Under the pieces are notes generated by a model, which saw nothing but the letters and a program-made list of their open reading frames with translations, searched no databases and was not told where the DNA came from. A stretch of DNA of 64,000 nucleotides, taken from NCBI GenBank assembly GCA_013348725.1, contig CP054689.1:2414501-2478500 (forward strand), given 5' to 3'. This stretch comes from Ectothiorhodospiraceae bacterium 2226 (GTDB lineage Bacteria > Pseudomonadota > Gammaproteobacteria > GCA-013348725). The translations under genes and the position numbers were made by a program. Position 1 is the first letter of the stretch. The number at the start of each line of letters is the position of its first letter. This document shows positions 3,594 through 24,871 of the stretch, piece after piece.

Positions 3594-5702
3594 ATGTCGG
3601 CCGAACAGTTTCTGCGCCTCGCGGACGGTCTACCCGAGGCGCTGCTGCTGGTGGCCCGCGACGGGACCGTGCTCAGCGTCAATCGCGCAGCCGGCCGCTT
3701 GCTAGGTCTTCCACGCGCCTGCTCGGGTGACCTCAAGTTACATGCGCTGGTGGATAACCCGCCCGCACAGATCGACAAGCTGTTGCGCGACTGGACGCGC
3801 AGCAGCCAGCCGTTGCCCGCACCCATCCGCTGGCGCCCCGGACGTGCAGGCGACCTGTCGGGCTGGCGCTGCACGGCGTTCACATTCGCAAACCCGGGCG
3901 ATGCCGCGCGTGGGCACGTTGTGCTGCGCTGCCAGCCGGGGCGGACGGCGCTCAGCGACTTCCAGGCCCTGAATCGGGAGTTGGCGCGCCAGCAGGCCAC
4001 GTTGCGCAAGCTGCACGCGAGCCGCGAAGCGTTGGAGCGCGCCCACGAGAATGCCCTGGTGACGCTGATGAGCATCGGAGATGCCGTCATCGCGACCGAC
4101 GCTCGGGCGCGGGTCGAGACCATGAATCCGGTGGCGGAGGCGCTCACGGGCTGGCCGCAGCACGAGGCGGCGGGCAAGCCGCTCGGCGAGGTGTTTCGCA
4201 TCGTGAATGAGTTCACGCGGGAGCCGGCTCTCGATCCGGTCGCGCGCTGCATTGCGGAAGGGCGTACCGTCGGGCTGGCGAGCCACACGGCACTCCTCGC
4301 GCGCGACGGCACCGAGTACGTCGTCGAGAATTCCGCCGCCCCCATACGCCGCCGAGACGGCGAGATCATCGGCGTGGTGCTCGTGTTCCGCGACGTCACC
4401 GAGGATCGCCTGGCGCAACGCCAACTCCACTACCTTGCGCAGCACGATGCGCTCACCGCGCTGTACAACCGCCACTACTTCGAGCGGGAGTTGGAGCGTG
4501 CGGTTCAGGTCGCGCGCCGCGGCGCGCTGCGTTACGCCATGCTCTACGTCGATCTCGATCAGTTCAAGGTGGTCAACGACACCGAGGGCCACGCGGTGGG
4601 CGACGAGCTGTTGCGCGAGGTCGGGAGTCTGCTCGGACAGCGGGTGCGCAAGGGCGACCTCATTGCCCGCCTCGGAGGCGACGAGTTCGGGCTGTTGCTG
4701 ACCGACGTGTCGCGGCGTGAGGCCATGGAGTTCGCGCATGAGCTGCTGCAACGCGTAAAGGGCCATCGCTTCGCGCGCCACGGAGTGGATTATGAGATCA
4801 GCGCCAGCATCGGCATCGCGATGGTCGGGTCGGAGACCAGCTCCGCTGCGGAAGCGCTGCGTTTTGCCGACATCGCCTGCTACATCGCCAAGCGCAACGG
4901 ACGCAGCCGCGTGCACATGTACGACGACGCGGAGGAGGTCAACGTCGCCACGGTGGGCGAGATGCAGTTGGTCAACGCGCTGCGCCATGCGCTCGCCAAC
5001 GATGCCTTCGAGTTGCATTTCCAGCCCATCGTGCACATCGCGAGCGGCGAGACGCGGGGCTATGAGGTGTTGTTGCGCATGCGGCGGCCGGACGGCACGT
5101 TGCTGCCTCCCGGCGCCTTCATACCGATCGCCGAACGCTACGGCTTGATGACCGAGATCGATCTGTGGGTGGTGCCGCGCGCGCTGCGCGCGCTGGAGGA
5201 TGCCGACCGACGCGGGCAACCGATCGCGCTGTCCGTCAATCTCTCCGGCTCCTCGCTGGGCGATGCGGCCGCACTTGCCGCCATCAAGAAGCTGTGCCGC
5301 GCTTTGCGGGTGCCCGCCGCCCGCGTCACGTTCGAGATCACCGAGACGGCCGCCATCGCGGTAGTGCACATCGAGCGCGCTCAGGCTTTTATGCGCGAGC
5401 TTCAAGGCCTCGGGTGCCGCTTTGCGCTGGACGATTTCGGCACCGGCTTCAGCTCGTTCGCCTACCTCAAGTGCCTGCCGGTGGACATCGTGAAGATCGA
5501 CGGCACCTTCGTGCGCGACATCCTCTCGGATCCGGTAGACCAGGCCATGGTGCGCTCCCTCAACCAGATCGCGCATTCCCTCGGCAAGGAGACGGTGGCC
5601 GAGTTCGTGGAGAGCGAGGCTGTCCTCGCATGCCTGCGGGAGTTCGGCGTCGACCACGCGCAGGGTTACTACCTGGGCAGGCCCGGCCCGGCCATATCCT
5701 AG
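3594..5702 (+). CDS. PAS-PAS-GGDEF-EAL c-di-GMP signalling protein
   Basis: 702 residues, cytosolic, no membrane segments. An N-terminal PAS-like domain (about 8-115) is followed by a short coiled coil (about 120-152), a second PAS (about 155-280), a GGDEF diguanylate cyclase domain (285-445, GGDEF at 361-365) and an EAL phosphodiesterase domain (460-700). The EAL signature is EVL (491-493) but keeps the metal-binding Glu. The other EAL residues are present in SVNLSG, FEITET, LDDFGTGFSSF, VKIDG and VAEFVE, so both activities are plausible. The GGDEF active site is intact. Start ATG at 3594 lies 4 bases after the metOD1 stop; longer starts would overlap that gene. Confidence 0.92.
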   Translation: MSAEQFLRLADGLPEALLLVARDGTVLSVNRAAGRLLGLPRACSGDLKLHALVDNPPAQIDKLLRDWTRSSQPLPAPIRWRPGRAGDLSGWRCTAFTFANPGDAARGHVVLRCQPGRTALSDFQALNRELARQQATLRKLHASREALERAHENALVTLMSIGDAVIATDARARVETMNPVAEALTGWPQHEAAGKPLGEVFRIVNEFTREPALDPVARCIAEGRTVGLASHTALLARDGTEYVVENSAAPIRRRDGEIIGVVLVFRDVTEDRLAQRQLHYLAQHDALTALYNRHYFERELERAVQVARRGALRYAMLYVDLDQFKVVNDTEGHAVGDELLREVGSLLGQRVRKGDLIARLGGDEFGLLLTDVSRREAMEFAHELLQRVKGHRFARHGVDYEISASIGIAMVGSETSSAAEALRFADIACYIAKRNGRSRVHMYDDAEEVNVATVGEMQLVNALRHALANDAFELHFQPIVHIASGETRGYEVLLRMRRPDGTLLPPGAFIPIAERYGLMTEIDLWVVPRALRALEDADRRGQPIALSVNLSGSSLGDAAALAAIKKLCRALRVPAARVTFEITETAAIAVVHIERAQAFMRELQGLGCRFALDDFGTGFSSFAYLKCLPVDIVKIDGTFVRDILSDPVDQAMVRSLNQIAHSLGKETVAEFVESEAVLACLREFGVDHAQGYYLGRPGPAIS

Positions 5703-12918: not shown

Positions 12919-13278
12919 ATGCGATTGATTTCCGAGCTGATTGAAGAACCCGGCGTCCGCTTGGCGGCGGACTATCCCTACCGCGGTGACCGCACCAGCA
13001 TCGAGGGTGACATGCCCCGCGAGAACGTGGATCTGCTGGCGGTGGTGTGCCGCTCCAACACGACCGCGGTGCGCATGGAGAGCGACATCCTCAGCCTGCT
13101 GGCGGGTGGACCCGACAAGTTCCCACCATTCCGCGGCTGGATGGCGCATGGCGCCAACTACAGCCTGTGCGTGGTCTCCAACACCTTGGTGCTGTGCAAC
13201 AACGAACAGGCCTCGTTCACGCGTGTGGTGCGCCGCATGTTGACGGGCCTGCACGACGCGCCGGACGAACGGATCTAG
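12919..13278 (+). CDS. DUF2173 (roadblock-like) protein 1
   Basis: 119 residues, soluble. Similar in size and pattern to DUF2173, a small alpha/beta family with a roadblock/LC7-like fold. This copy is the most divergent of the three: it keeps the RGWMAHGANYSLCVVSNTLVLC core with two cysteines and the C-terminal helix FTRVVRRML. The start follows AGGGGAAACGA. The next copy begins 114 bases downstream. Function unknown; roadblock proteins often bind small GTPases or act as dimeric scaffolds, but no GTPase gene is adjacent. Confidence 0.7.
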   Translation: MRLISELIEEPGVRLAADYPYRGDRTSIEGDMPRENVDLLAVVCRSNTTAVRMESDILSLLAGGPDKFPPFRGWMAHGANYSLCVVSNTLVLCNNEQASFTRVVRRMLTGLHDAPDERI

Positions 13279-13392
13279 CGGTACGCGTACAGTGCCCATG
13301 GGGCGGTGCGCGCGGACAACCAGCAAGGGCGTCGGCAGGTCCGACGCCGGATGGCCCCGACGGAGCGGGGCAGGCGAATCTAGGGGGAACGT

Positions 13393-13731
13393 ATGACTTC
13401 GATGGACCAATTGATCGCCCTGCCGGGCGTGGTGGCGGCCTTCGCCTTCAGCGATCGCGGCGAGTTGACGGAGGCCAAGCGGCGCGGCGAGTGTCCGCTC
13501 GACGACCGCAAACTCGACCTGCTGAGCCACCTGTGCGTCGCCAACCTCGCCGTGGCGACCATGCAGGCCCGCGGCTGGGGCACCCTGACCCAGAGCGCGG
13601 ATTACTATCCGGTGGAAGCGGTGACGTTGATCGGCGACAAGTGGTCCGCGATGGCCTCGCCGACGCACGGCGTACTGCTCGACACGTCGCAGGCGGATTT
13701 CGATGCCGCCTACGACGCACTCACCGGTTAG
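13393..13731 (+). CDS. DUF2173 (roadblock-like) protein 2
   Basis: 112 residues, a typical DUF2173 protein. It opens with MDQLIALPGVVAAFAFSD, the family's usual start, then LSHLCVANLAVATMQARGW, a central sheet (VEAVTLIGDKWSA) and a short final helix (FDAAYDALTG). The ribosome-binding site is AGGGGGAAC. It lies 9 bases before copy 3, so copies 2 and 3 are co-translated. No catalytic motif is visible. The paralogues differ enough that they probably form a heteromer and not redundant copies, but this is inference. Confidence 0.8.
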   Translation: MTSMDQLIALPGVVAAFAFSDRGELTEAKRRGECPLDDRKLDLLSHLCVANLAVATMQARGWGTLTQSADYYPVEAVTLIGDKWSAMASPTHGVLLDTSQADFDAAYDALTG

Positions 13732-13740
13732 GAGGGGCCC

Positions 13741-14076
13741 ATGCTAGAGCGTTTGCTGAGGCTGGACGGTGTGGTGGCGGCGGTCCATTTTCGCGAGGGC
13801 GGCGGATTGCTGAACGGCGTCGGCCAGTTGAGCGGAGAACAGATGGAACTGGTCGCGCGCTTCGCGAACGACCACAAGCGCATCACGCAAAGTAACGGCG
13901 ATCAATTCTCGGTGCTGGCGCAGATGAACGGCTGGGCCCCGGCGCGCGGCTGGATCGTGCACGGGCCGCGCATGTCGGCGGTGGGCATGGCGGACATCGC
14001 CTGTGTGTTTCGCAACGGCGCGGCCAAGTACAACGAGTTGCTCGAGGAGATGCGTCAGACGCTCACCACGCTGTAG
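13741..14076 (+). CDS. DUF2173 (roadblock-like) protein 3
   Basis: 111 residues. It begins MLERLLRLDGVVAAVHF, parallel to copy 2, and has the family's GWAPARGWIVHGP turn and a final amphipathic helix (YNELLEEMRQTLTTL). It lacks cysteines. It follows copy 2 by 9 bases behind GGAGGGGCCC and faces the AsmA-like gene, ending 10 bases before that gene's stop. No transcription terminator is seen between the two. Confidence 0.78.
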   Translation: MLERLLRLDGVVAAVHFREGGGLLNGVGQLSGEQMELVARFANDHKRITQSNGDQFSVLAQMNGWAPARGWIVHGPRMSAVGMADIACVFRNGAAKYNELLEEMRQTLTTL

Positions 14077-16537: not shown

Positions 16538-17158
16538 TCAGAACTGGAAGGCGTAACCGATCGTCGTCTCCCAGGTGTTGAGAGAATCGTCGAAGTTGTC
16601 GACCACCTTGTCGAGGTAGCGGTAACGCACGTCCCAGCGCAAAGCATGACCGTCCTGCAAGGGCCATTTGAGACCGCCGCCCGCGTTGAGCGTGAAGCTG
16701 TCGTCCCCGTCGACGGTTTGGCCGTTGAGCTGTATCTCGCGATCCAGGCGAGCGAAGCTCCAGCCCGCGCCGGCCGTGAGGTACCAGCTCGGCGTACCGG
16801 GCGTTATGTCCTGCGCGAGGCCGCCCATCGGAAAGTGGGCGAGATAGTTCACGTCCACCAGGTGCAGCGGCATGCTGATGCTGCCCTCGGGTGTGCCGTC
16901 AAGATCGGTGTCTGCGTAGGTGTAACGCAGTTCCCATCCGTGCAGGCCGAATGCGCCTCCCCAGCTCAGCCCAAACGCTCCGCCGTTGGACAGCTCCGGC
17001 TGTGGACCGGCCGTCCCGCTGACCGCCGTGTCACCCCACAGGTAACCCGCGTGTACCCCGATCTCCTGCGTTCCCGGGCCGTATTGCGCCAGTGCGCCCT
17101 GCGACATGGCCAGGCTTCCTGCCGCGACCATGGTCGAGATCATGGCGACGCCTTTCAT
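16538..17158 (-). CDS. Outer-membrane beta-barrel protein
   Basis: 206 residues: a signal peptide (about 1-22, ending SQGALAQ) and an eight-stranded-barrel-like remainder with alternating hydrophobic strands, ending in the aromatic YAFQF that the Bam machinery recognises. It resembles OmpA/OmpW-size barrels, but no specific family is certain. The ATG at 17158 is chosen because AAGGAGG is 6 bases upstream; a GTG two codons earlier would overlap the Shine-Dalgarno. Its upstream region carries a long palindrome, suggesting regulated expression. Confidence 0.8.
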   Translation of the reverse strand: MKGVAMISTMVAAGSLAMSQGALAQYGPGTQEIGVHAGYLWGDTAVSGTAGPQPELSNGGAFGLSWGGAFGLHGWELRYTYADTDLDGTPEGSISMPLHLVDVNYLAHFPMGGLAQDITPGTPSWYLTAGAGWSFARLDREIQLNGQTVDGDDSFTLNAGGGLKWPLQDGHALRWDVRYRYLDKVVDNFDDSLNTWETTIGYAFQF

Positions 17159-17197
17159 AAACACCTCCTTGTGTCTTGTCGTGCGTCGAGGATTGTG

Positions 17198-17231
17198 CAG
17201 TCTGCCGACCGATCGATCGGTCGGCAGACTG
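17198..17231. promoter_or_regulatory. Perfect 34-bp palindrome upstream of the OMP gene
   Basis: Every base of 17198-17214 pairs with 17215-17231; the centre is GACCGATCGATCGGTC. It lies 40 bases upstream of the outer-membrane gene start. There is no T-run, and it lies ahead of the gene, so an operator is likelier than a terminator. The ACCG...CGGT half-sites are reminiscent of TetR-family operators, but this is inference. Confidence 0.6.
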
Positions 17232-17320
17232 ACATGCCGGCGGGTTCCGAATCGCGCCCCCCGTCACCCAAAGTTTAGCAATCCGCCCCCGTTCAGGCGC
17301 GGGATGAGGTGGCGCGGGAA

Positions 17321-17761
17321 TCAGTAATGCGAGGCGATGATCAGCGCGGCACCCAACATGATCAGCGCGCCCCCCGCGGCCACGGCCGGCGTGAGATGGA
17401 CCTGGCGGAACAGCAGCCAGGTAAACAGCACGATGAACAGCGGATAGGTGATCTCGATCAGGCTCGCCAGGGTGGCGTTTTTGTTGCCGATCGTGGTGAA
17501 CAGCAGCACGGTCCCGCCCAGGCTGGTCAGGGCCAGGGCGAAGATGGGCAGGCGCGCGCGCCAGTCGAGCTCACCGAGCAGGACGAGATCGCGCGCCAGG
17601 TTATGTCGGTAGATCACGGCCACCGCCAGGATCGGCAGCGCGGTGAGCAGCAGCACGGCCGCCAGCGAGACCTTGCGCAAGGCGTGCTCCACCAGGGGGT
17701 AGTGGATCCCCCACATCAGGGCGGCGCCTAGGCCGGTAATGTACCAGGGGAGGTGTTGCAC
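17321..17761 (-). CDS. Single-domain EamA/DMT-type membrane protein
   Basis: 146 residues with five hydrophobic segments and one EamA repeat (LPWYITGLGAALMWGIHYP at the start; LIEITYPLFIVLFTWLLFRQ near the end). Typical drug/metabolite transporters have two such repeats, so this is a half-size, SMR-like form that would need to dimerise. The GTG at 17761 follows GAAGGACTCTC and puts the first helix at the N-terminus. Substrate unknown. Confidence 0.82.
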   Translation of the reverse strand: MQHLPWYITGLGAALMWGIHYPLVEHALRKVSLAAVLLLTALPILAVAVIYRHNLARDLVLLGELDWRARLPIFALALTSLGGTVLLFTTIGNKNATLASLIEITYPLFIVLFTWLLFRQVHLTPAVAAGGALIMLGAALIIASHY

Positions 17762-17893
17762 GAGAGTCCTTCTCCGGTTGCAGTGCGGCGCGCTCAATGT
17801 ACCGGAACCCGCCGCGTGGCGCACGGCTGCCCGCGCCAACGGCTTGACTACACTCGAAGCCATGATCCCCGACGCCCCTTACGGCGACCGCCC

Positions 17894-18991
17894 ATGAGTT
17901 CGAGCGATTGGTTCGCCGTGCCGCGCTGGCGCCGCCTTGCGCTGATGGCGGCGCTCCTGGTGCTGCTGGTGATCTGGCTTGCAAGCGGGGTGCTCACGCG
18001 CCAGGCACCGCAGCCGCCCGAGGCGCGTGCGCCCCTTGCCACGCTGGTGGCGGTGGAGACCCAGGAGGCGCGGCCGGTGCAACGGCGCTTGACCCTGCAG
18101 GGCGACGTGGAGCCCGATCAGGTGGTGCGGGTGCGCGCCCGCACCGCCGGGCCGGTGGAGCGCTGGGAGGCGCGCCTCGGCGAGCTGGTCGGGGCCGGCG
18201 ATCTGCTCGCGCACGTGGCCGTGGACGAGCGCGAGGCGCAGCTGCGCCAGGCCGAAGCGGCGCTGCGGTCGGCGCAGTCGGAGTATCGGGCCGCGCAGCA
18301 GTTGCTGGCCGAGGGCTTCGTGGCGGAAGGTGAACTCGAGCGCCGCGAGGCCGACTTGGAGGGCGCCCGCGCCCAAGTCGAGGCCATGCGCCAGGAGGTC
18401 GAGCACACGCGCGTGCGCGCCCCCATCGAGGGGGTGCTGAATGCGCGTTTGGCGGAGGTGGGGGACTTCGTGGCGGTGGGCGGGGAGGTCGCGGAGGTGG
18501 TCGACAACGATCCCTTGGTGGCTGTGGTGCGCGTGCCGCAGCACGCCGTGCACCGCCTGCGCGCGGGTGCGGCGGCCGAGGTGCGCTTTGTGGGCGGCGG
18601 TACCGCCGAGGGCACGTTGCGCTTTGTGGCGGTCCGCGCCGACCCGGCCACGCGCACCTTCCGGGCCGAGGTCGAGATACCCAACCCGGAGCGTGCGCTG
18701 CCCTCCGGCATCAGCGCCGAGGTGACGCTGCTCACCGGCGAGGCCGAGGCCCACAAGGTCTCGCCCGCCATCCTCTCGCTGGACGACGCCGGTCGCGTGG
18801 GGGTGCGCACGGTGGATGAGGGGCAGCGCGTGCGGTTCTACCCCGTCGAGATCGTGCGTGCCGAGGTCGACGGGGTGTGGGTCAGCGGCCTGCCGCGCAC
18901 CGCGCACATCATCACGGTGGGACACGGCTTCGTGAGCGATGGGGAGCAGGTGCGCGTCGAACCGCAGCACGCGGAGGCCGGCGCGTCATGA
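17894..18991 (+). CDS. RND efflux membrane-fusion (adaptor) subunit
   Basis: 365 residues. An N-terminal anchor (about 15-35) is followed by the usual adaptor order: a first barrel half, a split biotinyl-lipoyl motif (GPVERWEARLGELVGAGDLL and later VRAPIEGVLNARLAEVGDFV), between them an alpha-hairpin rich in Ala/Glu/Arg (about 120-180), then a beta-barrel and membrane-proximal domain. It links the inner-membrane pump to an outer-membrane channel. It overlaps the pump gene by ATGA. No TolC-like gene is adjacent, so the channel is presumably encoded elsewhere. Confidence 0.93.
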   Translation: MSSSDWFAVPRWRRLALMAALLVLLVIWLASGVLTRQAPQPPEARAPLATLVAVETQEARPVQRRLTLQGDVEPDQVVRVRARTAGPVERWEARLGELVGAGDLLAHVAVDEREAQLRQAEAALRSAQSEYRAAQQLLAEGFVAEGELERREADLEGARAQVEAMRQEVEHTRVRAPIEGVLNARLAEVGDFVAVGGEVAEVVDNDPLVAVVRVPQHAVHRLRAGAAAEVRFVGGGTAEGTLRFVAVRADPATRTFRAEVEIPNPERALPSGISAEVTLLTGEAEAHKVSPAILSLDDAGRVGVRTVDEGQRVRFYPVEIVRAEVDGVWVSGLPRTAHIITVGHGFVSDGEQVRVEPQHAEAGAS

Positions 18992-21900
18992 ACGCGCTGA
19001 TTGCCGCGGTCGCGGCACGCGGCCGCTCGGTGCTAATCGTGTTCCTGTTGTTGGTGCTCGCCGGGGCCTACGCCTACAGCGTCATCCCCAAGGAAGCCGC
19101 GCCCGACATCGATATCCCCATTTTCTTCATCAACGTCGTGCAGCAGGGCCTCTCGCCCGCCGACGCCGAGCGTTTGCTGGTGCGCCCGCTGGAGCGGGTG
19201 CTGCAACCGCTGGCGGGGCTGCGCGACATCACGGCCTACGCGGGCGAAGGCTTCGGCCTGGTGCAGCTGGAGTTCGATCCGCAGCGCGACAACCGCACGG
19301 CGCTGGAGGATGTGCGCGCAGAGGTCGACCAGGTACTGGCCGAGCTGCCGCCGGGCGCGGAGCGGCCGCACATCACGGAGGTGGACCTCACCCTGTTCCC
19401 GGTGCTCAGCGTGATCCTCTCCGGCCCCACGGGCGAGCGCGTCTTGCAGCGCATCGCGCGCCAGTTGGAGGATCGCCTGGAGGCCTTGCCCGGGGTGCTG
19501 GAGGTGGACATCGGCGGCGAGCGCGAGCACCTGATGGAGATACTCGCCGATCCCATGGTGATGGTGTCCTACGGTATCGGCTTCGACGAGTTGGCACAGG
19601 CGGTGCGGCGTAACAATCAGCTCGTTGCGGCCGGCGCGGCCGACACGGGCACGGGGCGCGTCGCCATCCGCATACCCGAGCTTATCGAAGGTGCCGCCGA
19701 GGTGCTCGACACTGTGGTGCGGGAGAGCGACGGCGCTGTGGTGCGCGTGCGCGATATTGCCGAGGTGCGCGAGACCTTCGAGGATCCGCAGGGCTTTGCG
19801 CGCGTGGACGGTCAGCCCGCCATCGCGCTCGAGGTCCGCAAGCAGGTCGAGGCCAACGTGATCGATCTGGTGCAGCAGGTGCGCGCCACTGTGGACGAGG
19901 CCGCGCGGGACTGGCCGGCGGGGTTGCAGGTCACCTTTCTGCAGGATCAGGCCGAAGCCGTGCAGCGCCAGATCGGCGACATGGAGAACGCGGTGGTGGT
20001 TGCGGTGATCCTGGTCATGTTGGTCGCCTTGGCCGCGCTCAGCGTGCGCGCGTCGCTGCTGGTGGCGCTGGCGGTACTGGGCTCCTTCCTCACGAGCATC
20101 CTGCTGGTTTCGCTGTTGGGCTTTACGCTCAACATCGTGGTGATGTTCGGCTTCATCCTGGTGATCGGGCTGTTGGTGGATGGCGCCGTCGTCGTGGTCG
20201 AGCTCGCGGACCGCTACCTCGCCGCCGGCGTCGGTGGCAGGCAGGCCTACGTACGTGCCGCGCAGCGCATGGCGTGGCCCATCACCACCGGCGCGGCCAC
20301 CACCGTCGCCGCGTTCGTGCCCATGCTGCTGTGGCCGGGCGTGGCGGGGCAGTTCATGCTGTATATCCCCGCCACGGTCATCGTCACGCTCGTCGTCGCA
20401 CTGCTCATGGCGCTGCTGGTGATCCCCACCCTGGGTACCTTGTTGCCGCGTGGTCGTCGCGCCGACCCAGAGCAGCAAGCGGTCGCGCGAGCGCTGGAGG
20501 AGGGGCACTTGGAGCGCGTGGGGCGGTTCACGCGCGGCTACGTGGCCGTACTGCGTCCGGCGGTGGCGCATCCGCTGCTCACGGTGGGAGCGGCTCTGGT
20601 GCTGATGATGGCTTTGTACACGGCCTATGCGGCGTTGGGGCGCGGGGTGGAGTTTTTTCCGCGCGTCGACCCGGACTTCCTGCAGATGCAGGTACAGGCG
20701 CGCGGCAATCTCTCGGTGCGCGAGGCCGACGCCTTGGTGCAGCAGGTGGAGCGGCGTGTGCTCGGCGTCGAGGGGGTGCGGGCGGTCTATGCGCGCACCC
20801 ATGGCGAGGTGCTGCAGCGCGTGCAGGCCAATGTGGCGCAGGACGTGGTGGGCGTGTTGCAGCTGGAGCTGCACCATTGGCGCGTGCGGCCGCCGGGGAC
20901 GGACATCGTCGCGGAGCTGCGGCGCCTGACCGCGGATATCCCCGGAGTGCGCGTGCAGGTGCGCGAGCAGCAGGGCGGGCCGCAGAGAGGCAAACCCATC
21001 GTGGTGCAACTCAGCGGCGCGGACGACGCCGCGCGGGAGCAGGCGGTGCGCCACGTACGCGCGCTCATGGCCGGGCTCGGCGGCTTCATCGACGTGGAGG
21101 ACGACCGTCCGCTGCCTGGCGTGGACGTGCGCGTGGTGGTCGACCGCGAGGCCGCCGCACGCCATGGCGCGGACATCGCGGTGCTGGGTCAGGCGGTGCA
21201 GATGATCACGCGCGGGGTGCCGCTGGACGTATACCGGCCCGCGCACACGGACGAGGAAGTCGACATCCGTCTGCGCTACCCGCCGCATCAGCGCAGCCTG
21301 CACCAGCTCGCGCAGCTCCAGGTGCCGACCGCGCGCGGCTTGGTGCCGGCCGCGCACTTCATCGAGTTTCAGCCGGTGCCGGCGCAGACGCTCATCCAGC
21401 GCTTGGACGGCACACGCGCCAACACGGTGGAGGCGGACGCGGCGCCGGACGAGCTGCCCGCCGACCTGATCGATCGACTGCGCCGCGCCCTGGCGCAGGA
21501 GCCGGTGCCGGAGGGCGTGCACGTCGCCTTTCGCGGCCAAGCGGAGGACCAGGCCGAGGTGGGCGCATTTCTGCCGCTCGCGGCGCTCACGGCCTTGTTC
21601 CTGATGGTGTTGATCCTGGTCACGCAGTTCAACAGCGTGTTTCAGGCGTTGTTGGTGCTCTCGGCCATCGTGTTCTCCACCGCCGGGGTCCTGCTGGGGC
21701 TGCTGCTGCGCGGCGAGCCGTTCGGCTTGATCATGAGCGGCATCGGCGTGCTGGCGCTGGCCGGCATCGTGGTGAACAACAACATCGTGCTGCTCGATAC
21801 CTACAACGCCTTGCGCGGCGAGGGTCTGGCCGCCGCGCACGCGGCGGTGCGCGCGGGCGCGCAGCGCCTGCGTCCCGTGTTGCTCACCTCCGCGACCACC

Positions 21901-22113
21901 GCGGCGGGGCTGATGCCCATGGTGCTGGGGCTGACGGTGGACATCCCGGGGCGCGACATCTATTTCGGCGCCCCGTCCACGCAGTACTGGATGCAGCTTG
22001 CCACGGCGGTGGTGGGCGGGCTTGTGCTCGCCGCGCCGCTGACGTTGCTGGTGACGCCGGCGGCCGTGTCCGGCTGGGACCGCTGGCGCGAGCGCCGCCG
22101 CGCGGCCGCGTGA
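18988..22113 (+). CDS. RND efflux pump, inner-membrane transporter
   Basis: 1041 residues, the AcrB/HAE-like size, with twelve membrane helices in two groups of six and two large periplasmic loops. In helix 4 the proton-relay motif reads GLLVDGAVVVVE: one Asp is kept, while the second position, Asp in AcrB, is Gly. The C-terminal half carries GIVVNNNIVLLDTYN. Substrate unknown; the sequence suggests organic compounds more than metals. It starts within the adaptor stop codon. The MarR gene lies convergent downstream and could control another promoter. Confidence 0.93.
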   Translation: MNALIAAVAARGRSVLIVFLLLVLAGAYAYSVIPKEAAPDIDIPIFFINVVQQGLSPADAERLLVRPLERVLQPLAGLRDITAYAGEGFGLVQLEFDPQRDNRTALEDVRAEVDQVLAELPPGAERPHITEVDLTLFPVLSVILSGPTGERVLQRIARQLEDRLEALPGVLEVDIGGEREHLMEILADPMVMVSYGIGFDELAQAVRRNNQLVAAGAADTGTGRVAIRIPELIEGAAEVLDTVVRESDGAVVRVRDIAEVRETFEDPQGFARVDGQPAIALEVRKQVEANVIDLVQQVRATVDEAARDWPAGLQVTFLQDQAEAVQRQIGDMENAVVVAVILVMLVALAALSVRASLLVALAVLGSFLTSILLVSLLGFTLNIVVMFGFILVIGLLVDGAVVVVELADRYLAAGVGGRQAYVRAAQRMAWPITTGAATTVAAFVPMLLWPGVAGQFMLYIPATVIVTLVVALLMALLVIPTLGTLLPRGRRADPEQQAVARALEEGHLERVGRFTRGYVAVLRPAVAHPLLTVGAALVLMMALYTAYAALGRGVEFFPRVDPDFLQMQVQARGNLSVREADALVQQVERRVLGVEGVRAVYARTHGEVLQRVQANVAQDVVGVLQLELHHWRVRPPGTDIVAELRRLTADIPGVRVQVREQQGGPQRGKPIVVQLSGADDAAREQAVRHVRALMAGLGGFIDVEDDRPLPGVDVRVVVDREAAARHGADIAVLGQAVQMITRGVPLDVYRPAHTDEEVDIRLRYPPHQRSLHQLAQLQVPTARGLVPAAHFIEFQPVPAQTLIQRLDGTRANTVEADAAPDELPADLIDRLRRALAQEPVPEGVHVAFRGQAEDQAEVGAFLPLAALTALFLMVLILVTQFNSVFQALLVLSAIVFSTAGVLLGLLLRGEPFGLIMSGIGVLALAGIVVNNNIVLLDTYNALRGEGLAAAHAAVRAGAQRLRPVLLTSATTAAGLMPMVLGLTVDIPGRDIYFGAPSTQYWMQLATAVVGGLVLAAPLTLLVTPAAVSGWDRWRERRRAAA

Positions 22114-22587: not shown

Positions 22588-22815
22588 CGGTACTCCGCAA
22601 TGGATCTCGTACTGTAGTGCGCCGCGGCGCACAGGGTCAACGCACCCGCGCCGCGCGACAAGCCGGGGCTGCTCGGCTATAAGAATTTGTTGTGTTGCAA
22701 AGGGTTTTTCCTTTCGCGCAGTGGGCCAAGGAGCGGCCCCGTAACGCGGCCGCCGGCGACGTAACGCGCGGTGCGCAGTCACTTCATACCCACCAAGAAC
22801 GACAAGGAGGTTCGC

Positions 22816-23019
22816 ATGGGATTGTTGGCTTGGGCCCTCGTCTCGTTGGTCGTGGCCGTCATCGCCGCCGCCGTAGGATTCACCGGCGTGGCGGCCGGTG
22901 CCGCGATGATCGCGAAATGGCTGTTCGGAATCTTTCTCCTGATTGCCGTCATTTTGCTGATCCTCGGGCTAATGAACGGCGGCGGGCCGGCGATCGCGCT
23001 CGGCCTGCTGGGGCTGTAG
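22816..23019 (+). CDS. DUF1328 small membrane protein 1
   Basis: 67 residues with two hydrophobic helices separated by AAGAAMIAKWLFGIF, the signature segment of DUF1328 (YtjA-like) proteins. These are small inner-membrane proteins of unknown role, often stress-linked. The ribosome-binding site is AAGGAGG. The ATG at 22816 is chosen over an earlier in-frame start because of this site. A second copy follows after 9 bases. Confidence 0.85.
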   Translation: MGLLAWALVSLVVAVIAAAVGFTGVAAGAAMIAKWLFGIFLLIAVILLILGLMNGGGPAIALGLLGL

Positions 23020-23028
23020 GAGGCGGGC

Positions 23029-23208
23029 ATGGAGCTGATTTGGTTCGCCGTGGTGGCCTTGATCGTCTCGGTAGTGGCCGGCGCGCTCGGCTTCGCGGGC
23101 GTGGCCGGGCGCGCCGCCACGCTCGCCAAATGGCTGTTTGCGATCTTTCTCGTGCTCGCGGTCATCCTCATCATCTTGGTGGTGCTCGGCGTTCGGGCGT
23201 TGAACTGA
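23029..23208 (+). CDS. DUF1328 small membrane protein 2
   Basis: 59 residues (MELIWFAVVALIVSVV... to ...VVLGVRALN), a clear paralogue of the preceding gene with the same two helices and the segment GRAATLAKWLFAIFLVLA. Its ribosome-binding site is TAGGAGGCGGGC. The CDF transporter starts 18 bases downstream. The two copies could form hetero-oligomers; there is no direct evidence for function. Confidence 0.85.
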   Translation: MELIWFAVVALIVSVVAGALGFAGVAGRAATLAKWLFAIFLVLAVILIILVVLGVRALN

Positions 23209-23226
23209 CGCGCGGAGCGCGCCCGC

Positions 23227-24153
23227 ATGGCCCACGCGCACGACCATCACGCGCACGCGCACGGGACGCACGCGCACCGCCCGAGCAGTCGCCGCGTACT
23301 GCTCGCCGCCGTGGTACTGACGCTGACCTTCGGGCTGGTCGAGGGGCTGGCCGGCTGGTGGGCACAGTCGCTCGCCTTGATGTCGGATGCGGCGCACATG
23401 TTGTCGGATGCGTTCGCGCTGGGGCTGGCCGCGTTGGCGGCGCACGTCGCGCTGGCGCCGCCGACGCGTCGCCATTCTTTCGGGCTCGGCCGGGCCGAGG
23501 TGCTGGCGGCGCTGGTCAACGGACTGGTCATGCTGGCCATCGTCACCGCCATCGTGGTCGAGGCGGTGCGGCGGCTGTTCGCGCCCGCGCCGGTGGCGGG
23601 CGGGGTGGTGATGGGCGTGGCGCTGCTCGGCCTGACGGTGAACGTGGCGGTGGCCTGGATGCTCACGCGCGGCGAGCGCACGCTGAACGTGCGCGGGGCC
23701 TTGTTGCACGTGCTGGGCGATCTGCTCGGCTCGGTGGCGGCGCTGTTGGCCGGGGCGGTGATCTTCTTTACCGGTTGGACGCCGGCCGATCCGATTCTGT
23801 CGCTGGTCGTGTGTGCGCTGATTCTGTTCGCCAGTCTGCGTTTGCTGCGCGAGGCCCTGCACGTCATCATGGAGGGCGTGCCGTTGCACCTGGATCTGCA
23901 CGAAGTCGGGCGGGCGATGGCGGCCGCGGACCCGCGTATCCGCTCGGTGCACGACGTGCATATCTGGAGTCTATCGTCCGGAACCGCGGCGGTGTCGGCA
24001 CACGTGGTGCTGGACGATCTGCGGGCCTGGGACGCGGTGCTCGCGGCCCTGCGGCAGACACTGCACGACGATTTTGCGATCGATCACGTCACACTGCAGC
24101 CGGAGGCGACCGTCACCCACGTGCTGCAGCCCATGCCACGACCGAACCGTTGA
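23227..24153 (+). CDS. Cation diffusion facilitator (CzcD/ZitB-like metal exporter)
   Basis: 308 residues. A His-rich cytosolic N-terminus (AHAHDHHAHAHGTHAH) precedes six membrane helices. Helix 2 holds the metal site in LMSDAAHMLSDAF and helix 5 the matching one in LLHVLGDLLGSVAA. A cytosolic ferredoxin-like C-terminal domain follows with VHDVHIWSLSSG. The HxxxD/DxxxD arrangement fits zinc or cobalt export by proton antiport. It probably belongs to one operon with the two DUF1328 genes and the downstream methyltransferase. Confidence 0.94.
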   Translation: MAHAHDHHAHAHGTHAHRPSSRRVLLAAVVLTLTFGLVEGLAGWWAQSLALMSDAAHMLSDAFALGLAALAAHVALAPPTRRHSFGLGRAEVLAALVNGLVMLAIVTAIVVEAVRRLFAPAPVAGGVVMGVALLGLTVNVAVAWMLTRGERTLNVRGALLHVLGDLLGSVAALLAGAVIFFTGWTPADPILSLVVCALILFASLRLLREALHVIMEGVPLHLDLHEVGRAMAAADPRIRSVHDVHIWSLSSGTAAVSAHVVLDDLRAWDAVLAALRQTLHDDFAIDHVTLQPEATVTHVLQPMPRPNR

Positions 24154-24163
24154 GGAGGTGGTA

Positions 24164-24871
24164 ATGCGCTGGCTAAGGATTTCCTTGGTTCTCGTCCTGT
24201 CGCTGTTGCTGATGCCCGCGGGCGCAGTGGCCGAGTCGCCCGGGCTCGCGCCGACGGGGGCCGATCCGGCCATCAATCGGCCGTACCTCGACCCCGATTT
24301 TGAACAATGGAAGGGCCGCTTCGAGCGACCGGGGCGCGAGGTCTACGACCATCGCGAGCGCATCCTCGAGGCCTTGGCGCTCGAGTCGGGCGCGGCCGTG
24401 GCGGACGTCGGCGCGGGTACCGGCCTGTTCACCCTGCTGTTCGCCGAGGCGGTGGGGGAGGAGGGGCGCGTCTACGCGGTCGATATCTCGCGCACCTTCG
24501 TCGACAACATCGAGCGGCGTGCCGCGGCGGCCGGTCACGAGAACGTGATCGGCATCATCGGCGAGCAGGCAGGGGTCGGCCTCGACGCGGAATCGGTCGA
24601 CCTGGTGTTCACCTCCGACACCTACCACCACTTCGAGCAGCCCGAGGCCATGGTGCGCGCCATCCACGCGGCGCTGCGCCCGGGCGGCGAGTTCGTGTTG
24701 ATCGATTTCGAGCGCATCGAGGGTCACAGCTCGCGCTGGATTCTGGAGCACGTGCGCGCCGGCAAGGAGACGGTGATCGAGGAGGTCGAGGCGGAGGGTT
24801 TTCGCCTGATCGGCGAAGAGGACTTCCTTAACGAGAACTACTTCCTGCGCTTCGAGAAGCCGGCCTCCTGA
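24164..24871 (+). CDS. SAM-dependent methyltransferase with signal peptide
   Basis: 235 residues. Residues 1-23 (MRWLRISLVLVLSLLLMPAG then AVA) are a good Sec signal peptide. After it comes a class I methyltransferase core: VADVGAGTGLFTLLFAEAVG (SAM-binding loop I), VYAVDIS, and SVDLVFTSDTYHHFEQP. Related exported methyltransferases are common in proteobacteria, although SAM is a cytosolic cofactor, so the real site and reaction are unclear. The ribosome-binding site is GAGGAGGTGGTA. Its stop overlaps the start of the DUF488 gene by one base. Confidence 0.83.
   Translation: MRWLRISLVLVLSLLLMPAGAVAESPGLAPTGADPAINRPYLDPDFEQWKGRFERPGREVYDHRERILEALALESGAAVADVGAGTGLFTLLFAEAVGEEGRVYAVDISRTFVDNIERRAAAAGHENVIGIIGEQAGVGLDAESVDLVFTSDTYHHFEQPEAMVRAIHAALRPGGEFVLIDFERIEGHSSRWILEHVRAGKETVIEEVEAEGFRLIGEEDFLNENYFLRFEKPAS

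Follow-up and report, generated by a model that had tools for sequence, protein, structure and literature searches.

Why does a perfect palindrome of 34 bp stand in front of the gene for a small outer-membrane protein? The question concerns what we call the window, i.e. the whole stretch of 64,000 nucleotides (64 kb) analysed here, in which the letters at positions 17198 to 17231 read CAGTCTGCCGACCGATCGATCGGTCGGCAGACTG, a sequence that equals its own reverse complement with neither gap nor loop. An earlier note on this DNA had proposed that it was either the binding site of a TetR-like repressor or a mobile REP-like element. We consider it probable (roughly 0.55) that the palindrome is a TetR-family operator, and that its likeliest binder is the TetR protein encoded at the head of an efflux pump operon elsewhere in the genome (pump TetR in the following), which would repress the beta-barrel gene next to the palindrome.

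A single perfect palindrome before a beta-barrel gene

The palindrome is the longest perfect one of the window, the runners-up having 18 bp. Assuming independent bases and the composition of the window (G+C 0.68), perfect palindromes of at least 34 bp are expected 3e-5 times per window and 0.0014 times per genome, and the earlier note was thus right both about the length and perfection of the symmetry and about its improbability by chance. The REP-like element, on the contrary, did not survive the genome-wide search for copies which the same note had suggested: the 22-bp core, with up to three mismatches, was found at one place in the genome of 2,956,257 bases (reversed control, none) and, because it is present in a single copy, the palindrome is not a REP-like repeat. 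With the 16-bp core as query and the same tolerance, 15 places came up in this genome, namely the palindrome itself (exact) and 14 others with three mismatches, against two in the reversed control; these near-matches to GACCGATCGATCGGTC may reflect composition (CGATCG) or be weak sites. Carry-over from a plasmid was also considered and rejected, the 51-bp region being without a match in the plasmid collection (from which records very near to this genome may be left out).

The gene that we propose as the target (16538 to 17158, minus strand) encodes a protein of 206 amino acids with a Pfam match to outer-membrane beta-barrels (OMP_b-brl, E 7.8e-11). Its ATG at 17158 is preceded by the Shine-Dalgarno sequence AGGAGG (17164 to 17169, minus strand) and lies 40 bp from the palindrome, exactly as had been reported before. 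Directly after the palindrome, the hexamer CACAAT (17192 to 17197, minus strand) is a possible -10 element, which by our own count agrees at 4 of 6 positions and has no matching -35; the consensus scan detected no sigma-70 promoter at the palindrome. The candidate site may either overlap the promoter or act as a roadblock. On the other side, 89 bp separate the palindrome from the stop codon of an EamA-type transporter gene transcribed in the same direction (17321 to 17863, minus strand; Pfam EamA, 2.9e-11), whose coordinates are those of the longest frame, the true start being probably further in.

The beta-barrel protein has no match in the PDB at E 1, none in the genome-contig collection (which may leave out this genome and those near it), and its score against the NCBIfam model OMP_myx_plus, 41.5 bits, stays below the cut-off of 60. 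Besides itself, only three weak matches were found among 369 genomes of the class (E 1.7e-7, 8.9e-5 and 4.1e-4), with no clear orthologue among them; none of these three loci (L011 to L013) carries a good site, the best reaching 8.4 bits. It should be noted that all 55 further genomes sampled as relatives share no more than the class with this one.

The neighbours searched in Pfam (EamA, the beta-barrel gene, AsmA, an MFP-RND pair and three DUF2173 genes) do not include a regulator, and the window holds no TetR_N match, in agreement with the earlier remark that no regulator gene adjoins the palindrome; the frame at 22692 to 24164 has no Pfam match. The MFP-RND pair (a HlyD-type protein followed by a member of the AcrB family, 17753 to 22113 of the window) starts 0.5 to 0.7 kb from the palindrome and reads away from it. 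The DUF2173 genes, of an uncharacterised family, form a tandem triplet at 12919 to 14073 (Pfam E 1.6e-21, 7.3e-26 and 6.6e-30).

The pump TetR and the sites of its subfamily

The genome contains eight TetR_N matches, and one of them (G000:C1:626943-627569) is a close member of a TetR subfamily with conserved upstream sites. It opens a TetR-MFP-RND efflux operon, 1.8 Mb along the contig from the palindrome, and stands between the MFP-RND pair of that operon and a gene which, by eye, we take to be argF. Among solved structures the protein finds only distant TetR relatives, the best at E 1.2e-14 (3npi). Upstream of it, ACCGTCCGGTCGGT is placed between TTGCTA (-35-like) and TATACT (-10-like), two hexamers 17 bp apart, and in the complete arrangement, TTGCTA-ACCGTCCGGTCGGTCAG-TATACT, the spacer holds the inverted repeat ACCG-N6-CGGT. 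The centre of the palindrome (17207 to 17222), singled out by the matrix scan, the spacing count and the search of this genome, is GACCG-ATCGAT-CGGTC, i.e. two half-sites at spacing 6, and its ACCG-ATCGAT-CGGT is identical to the repeat of the pump TetR promoter in half-sites and spacing.

How much weight this likeness deserves was evaluated with several counts. The pattern ACCGWYCGRWCGGT, built after both sites had been seen, occurs exactly in the genome only twice, before the pump TetR gene and in the palindrome; at one mismatch four further places appear, and the total of six equals that of the reversed control. ACCG-N2/N6-CGGT lies within 260 bp before the HTH in one of the eight TetR_N loci, and since at least one of eight upstream regions has it in 632 of 5000 shuffled sets, the likeness within this genome, taken alone, is modest evidence. 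The loose form GACCG-N6-CGGTC with up to one mismatch was discarded as uninformative: it has 370 places against 304 in the reversed control, so that the bare architecture is not rare, and exact instances exist at no fewer than four other places among the matches listed. Another TetR gene of this genome (1411 to 2081 of locus L004) is flanked by two inverted repeats that resemble each other, with GACTAGAACGAACGCTCGTTCTAGTC preceding the gene and the perfect TAGAACGAACGTTCGTTCTA following it.

More information comes from the relatives of the pump TetR, present at E 1e-15 or better in 45 of the 369 class genomes, this one included. We read 320 bp upstream in 26 of the 29 loci fetched from the other genomes, dropping three in which the HTH was not located; L052/L053, L059/L060 and L067/L068 are near-duplicates within this set. 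Of the 26 regions, 20 contain GACCG-N-CGGTC with spacing 2 and seven with spacing 6; spacing 10 is seen once, and all other spacings from 0 to 12 are empty. The shorter ACCG-N-CGGT behaves similarly (21 at spacing 2, 11 at 6, three at 10, and one each at 1 and 11). This concentration at spacings 2 and 6 indicates that the subfamily has a conserved upstream site, CTGACCG-N2-CGGTCAG or a form 4 bp longer (spacing 6). The promoter of the pump TetR itself carries a site of the same class as the palindrome, and the class is kept upstream of the related TetR genes.

A half-site matrix was then derived from 25 of the 26 upstream regions, leaving out the genome under study. It assigns 20.6 bits to the pump TetR promoter and 17.2 bits to the palindrome, which ranks first in the window (next independent site, 12.9 bits); over about 161 kb of partly overlapping loci from this genome, the TetR's own site is the only one to score higher. 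Random 34-bp palindromes reach 17.1 bits in 0.085% of cases and arm-shuffled ones in 0.14%, and multiplying the chance rate by the eight TetR genes gives about 1%. Among the training sites this score would rank low, above only three of the 26 promoters, suggesting that the palindrome is a weak or variant site of this class. It has GCCGACCG in place of the CTGACCG flank and contains no exact spacing-2 site. Its core also admits a reading as a pair of spacing-2 sites that overlap with an offset of 4 bp, one half-site of each differing by a single base, and the TetR motif leaves the outer arms CAGTCTGCC and GGCAGACTG unexplained.

From these comparisons, the two-fold-symmetric inverted repeat typical of TetR-family operators is present, perfect over all 34 bp, and its half-sites and spacing match those upstream of TetR genes, at the low end of scores. 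Of the two readings proposed earlier, the TetR-like site is the one that gains support, because the core matches the half-site and spacing found upstream of a TetR subfamily present in this very genome.

The site in other genomes and alternative readings

The exact 16-bp core was absent from all other genomes among the 369 of the class. An exact scan of GTDB with CGACCGATCGATCGGTCG gave 20 places, and at three of these loci (L037, L039 and L049) a relative of the pump TetR is encoded. In L037, from an unrelated genome, CGACCGATCGATCGGTCG closely precedes the TetR gene, with the spacing-2 site CTCGACCGATCGGTCGAC at a distance of 18 bp; in L039, also unrelated, it falls just downstream of a TetR gene, between it and the next gene, and ACCGACCGGTCGGTCGGT stands immediately before that TetR gene; in L049 the TetR gene is about 3 kb away and is preceded by a similar site. 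At the other 17 places no match to the pump TetR was found in the stretch examined. Two of these sit in longer perfect palindromes, of 58 bp in L031 (4741 to 4798) and 36 bp in L033 (around 4342 to 4359), whose length is not explained by the TetR motif; both surround the same 18-bp core on two MAG contigs and may be real or assembly artefacts.

The consensus CTGACCG-N2-CGGTCAG, which does not occur in the genome under study, was found in the 369 class genomes at 24 places in 18 genomes, and its reversed control at 10 places in 10. A match to the pump TetR at E 1e-15 is also present in 15 of those 18 genomes, versus 2 of the 10 control genomes (the lists were compared by eye). Among the 18 loci fetched, the site precedes outer-membrane efflux protein genes in L111 and L124 and an MFS transporter gene in L117, and in L126 it falls within the beginning of an open frame that encodes a HlyD-type protein; further sites, within or next to genes without such a connection (ftsZ and pmbA/tldD, for example), may be due to chance.

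The occurrences in L037 and L039 bear also on the first alternative, by which the palindrome would be the operator of another dimeric regulator, i.e. one of the other TetR proteins encoded here, a TetR that the TetR_N search overlooked, or a protein of another HTH family, its likeness to the pump TetR sites being a taste shared by the family or a coincidence. Because GACCG-type palindromes stand beside other TetR genes in these distant genomes, half-sites of this kind may be common to several TetR subfamilies, and the low-end score for the pump TetR points in the same direction. Against this, ACCG-N2/N6-CGGT is missing from the 260 bp ahead of the HTH in the remaining seven TetR_N loci, of which L004, for example, has GACTAGAACGAACGCTCGTTCTAGTC in that interval. 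We regard a different binder as credible, though unlikely.

A second possibility is a role in RNA, where the 5' leader of the beta-barrel mRNA would form a very stable hairpin that protects the message from decay or attenuates transcription. The palindrome does belong to the short region before the start codon, and the 141-nt stretch from 17150 to 17290 (minus strand) folds to -62.6 kcal/mol, with a z-score of -4.75 and none of 200 shuffles as low; but strong folding is expected of any perfect palindrome. The perfect palindromes of 36 and 58 bp around the same core at two GTDB places would also suit this explanation, as the TetR motif does not require them. On the other hand, the symmetry continues through the centre, which is needless for a hairpin loop, and neither a run of T after the palindrome nor a terminator was found there by the scan, in contrast to the gene just before the pump operon, which has at its end a stem with a T-run behind it. 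An intrinsic terminator was rejected because the stem is without a T-run, and the RNA role as a whole seems quite improbable to us. Finally, a mobile or repetitive palindromic element, a chance event or an assembly artefact is highly improbable, given the single copy, the low chance expectation and a genome assembled in one contig and listed as 100% complete, even if the 58-bp palindrome of L031 could be an artefact, so that such artefacts would occur.

Predicted regulation and comparison with known systems

If the palindrome is the operator of the pump TetR, we propose that one or two dimers of the protein would occupy the pair of GACCG half-sites at spacing 6; the two overlapping spacing-2 sites that can be read in the core would suit two, as described for QacR. 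Bound within the promoter of the beta-barrel gene or a short way upstream of it, the protein would prevent transcription; its release would presumably be triggered by a ligand of the pump system, and by this release the beta-barrel protein and the pump would be co-induced. A bolder version, to which we give little credence, has the 34-bp operator seating two or more dimers of the pump TetR and the same sequence forming a leader hairpin once the repressor has left. Should it be true, an operator for two or more dimers at a lineage-specific beta-barrel gene would tie the make-up of the outer membrane to drug efflux.

Under the operator reading, an orphan outer-membrane protein gains a candidate regulator that can be tested. 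A conserved upstream site class is also described for a TetR subfamily spread over the class, with members of the site class ahead of efflux or transporter genes at three of the loci looked at. Our literature search found no paper linking a TetR operator with GACCGATCGGTC, or a TetR family RND operator with ACTGACCG, though the motif may have been published all the same.

TetR operators before transport or membrane genes are a known kind, and what is unusual here is the length, the perfection and the orphan target; the palindrome would be a switch of a common type whose form is unusually symmetric. The efflux repressors of the TetR family, such as AcrR and MexZ, have as operators inverted repeats at or within promoters; the palindrome is likewise an inverted repeat, possibly at a promoter, and the likeness extends to the related site of this genome, which fills the spacer between the promoter-like hexamers of the TetR-MFP-RND operon. 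MexZ binds a palindrome of 20 bp (PMC9736018). Unlike those operators, the palindrome studied here is far from the gene of its putative regulator, measures 34 bp, is perfect and precedes a small beta-barrel gene. The operator of QacR has 28 bp and takes two dimers on overlapping palindromes with a 6-bp non-palindromic centre (PMC6018408). The two have in common a long palindrome readable as two overlapping sites, with one or two dimers predicted at ours; they differ in the sequence of the half-sites and in the centre, since our palindrome is symmetric throughout, whereas that of QacR is interrupted by its 6-bp centre.
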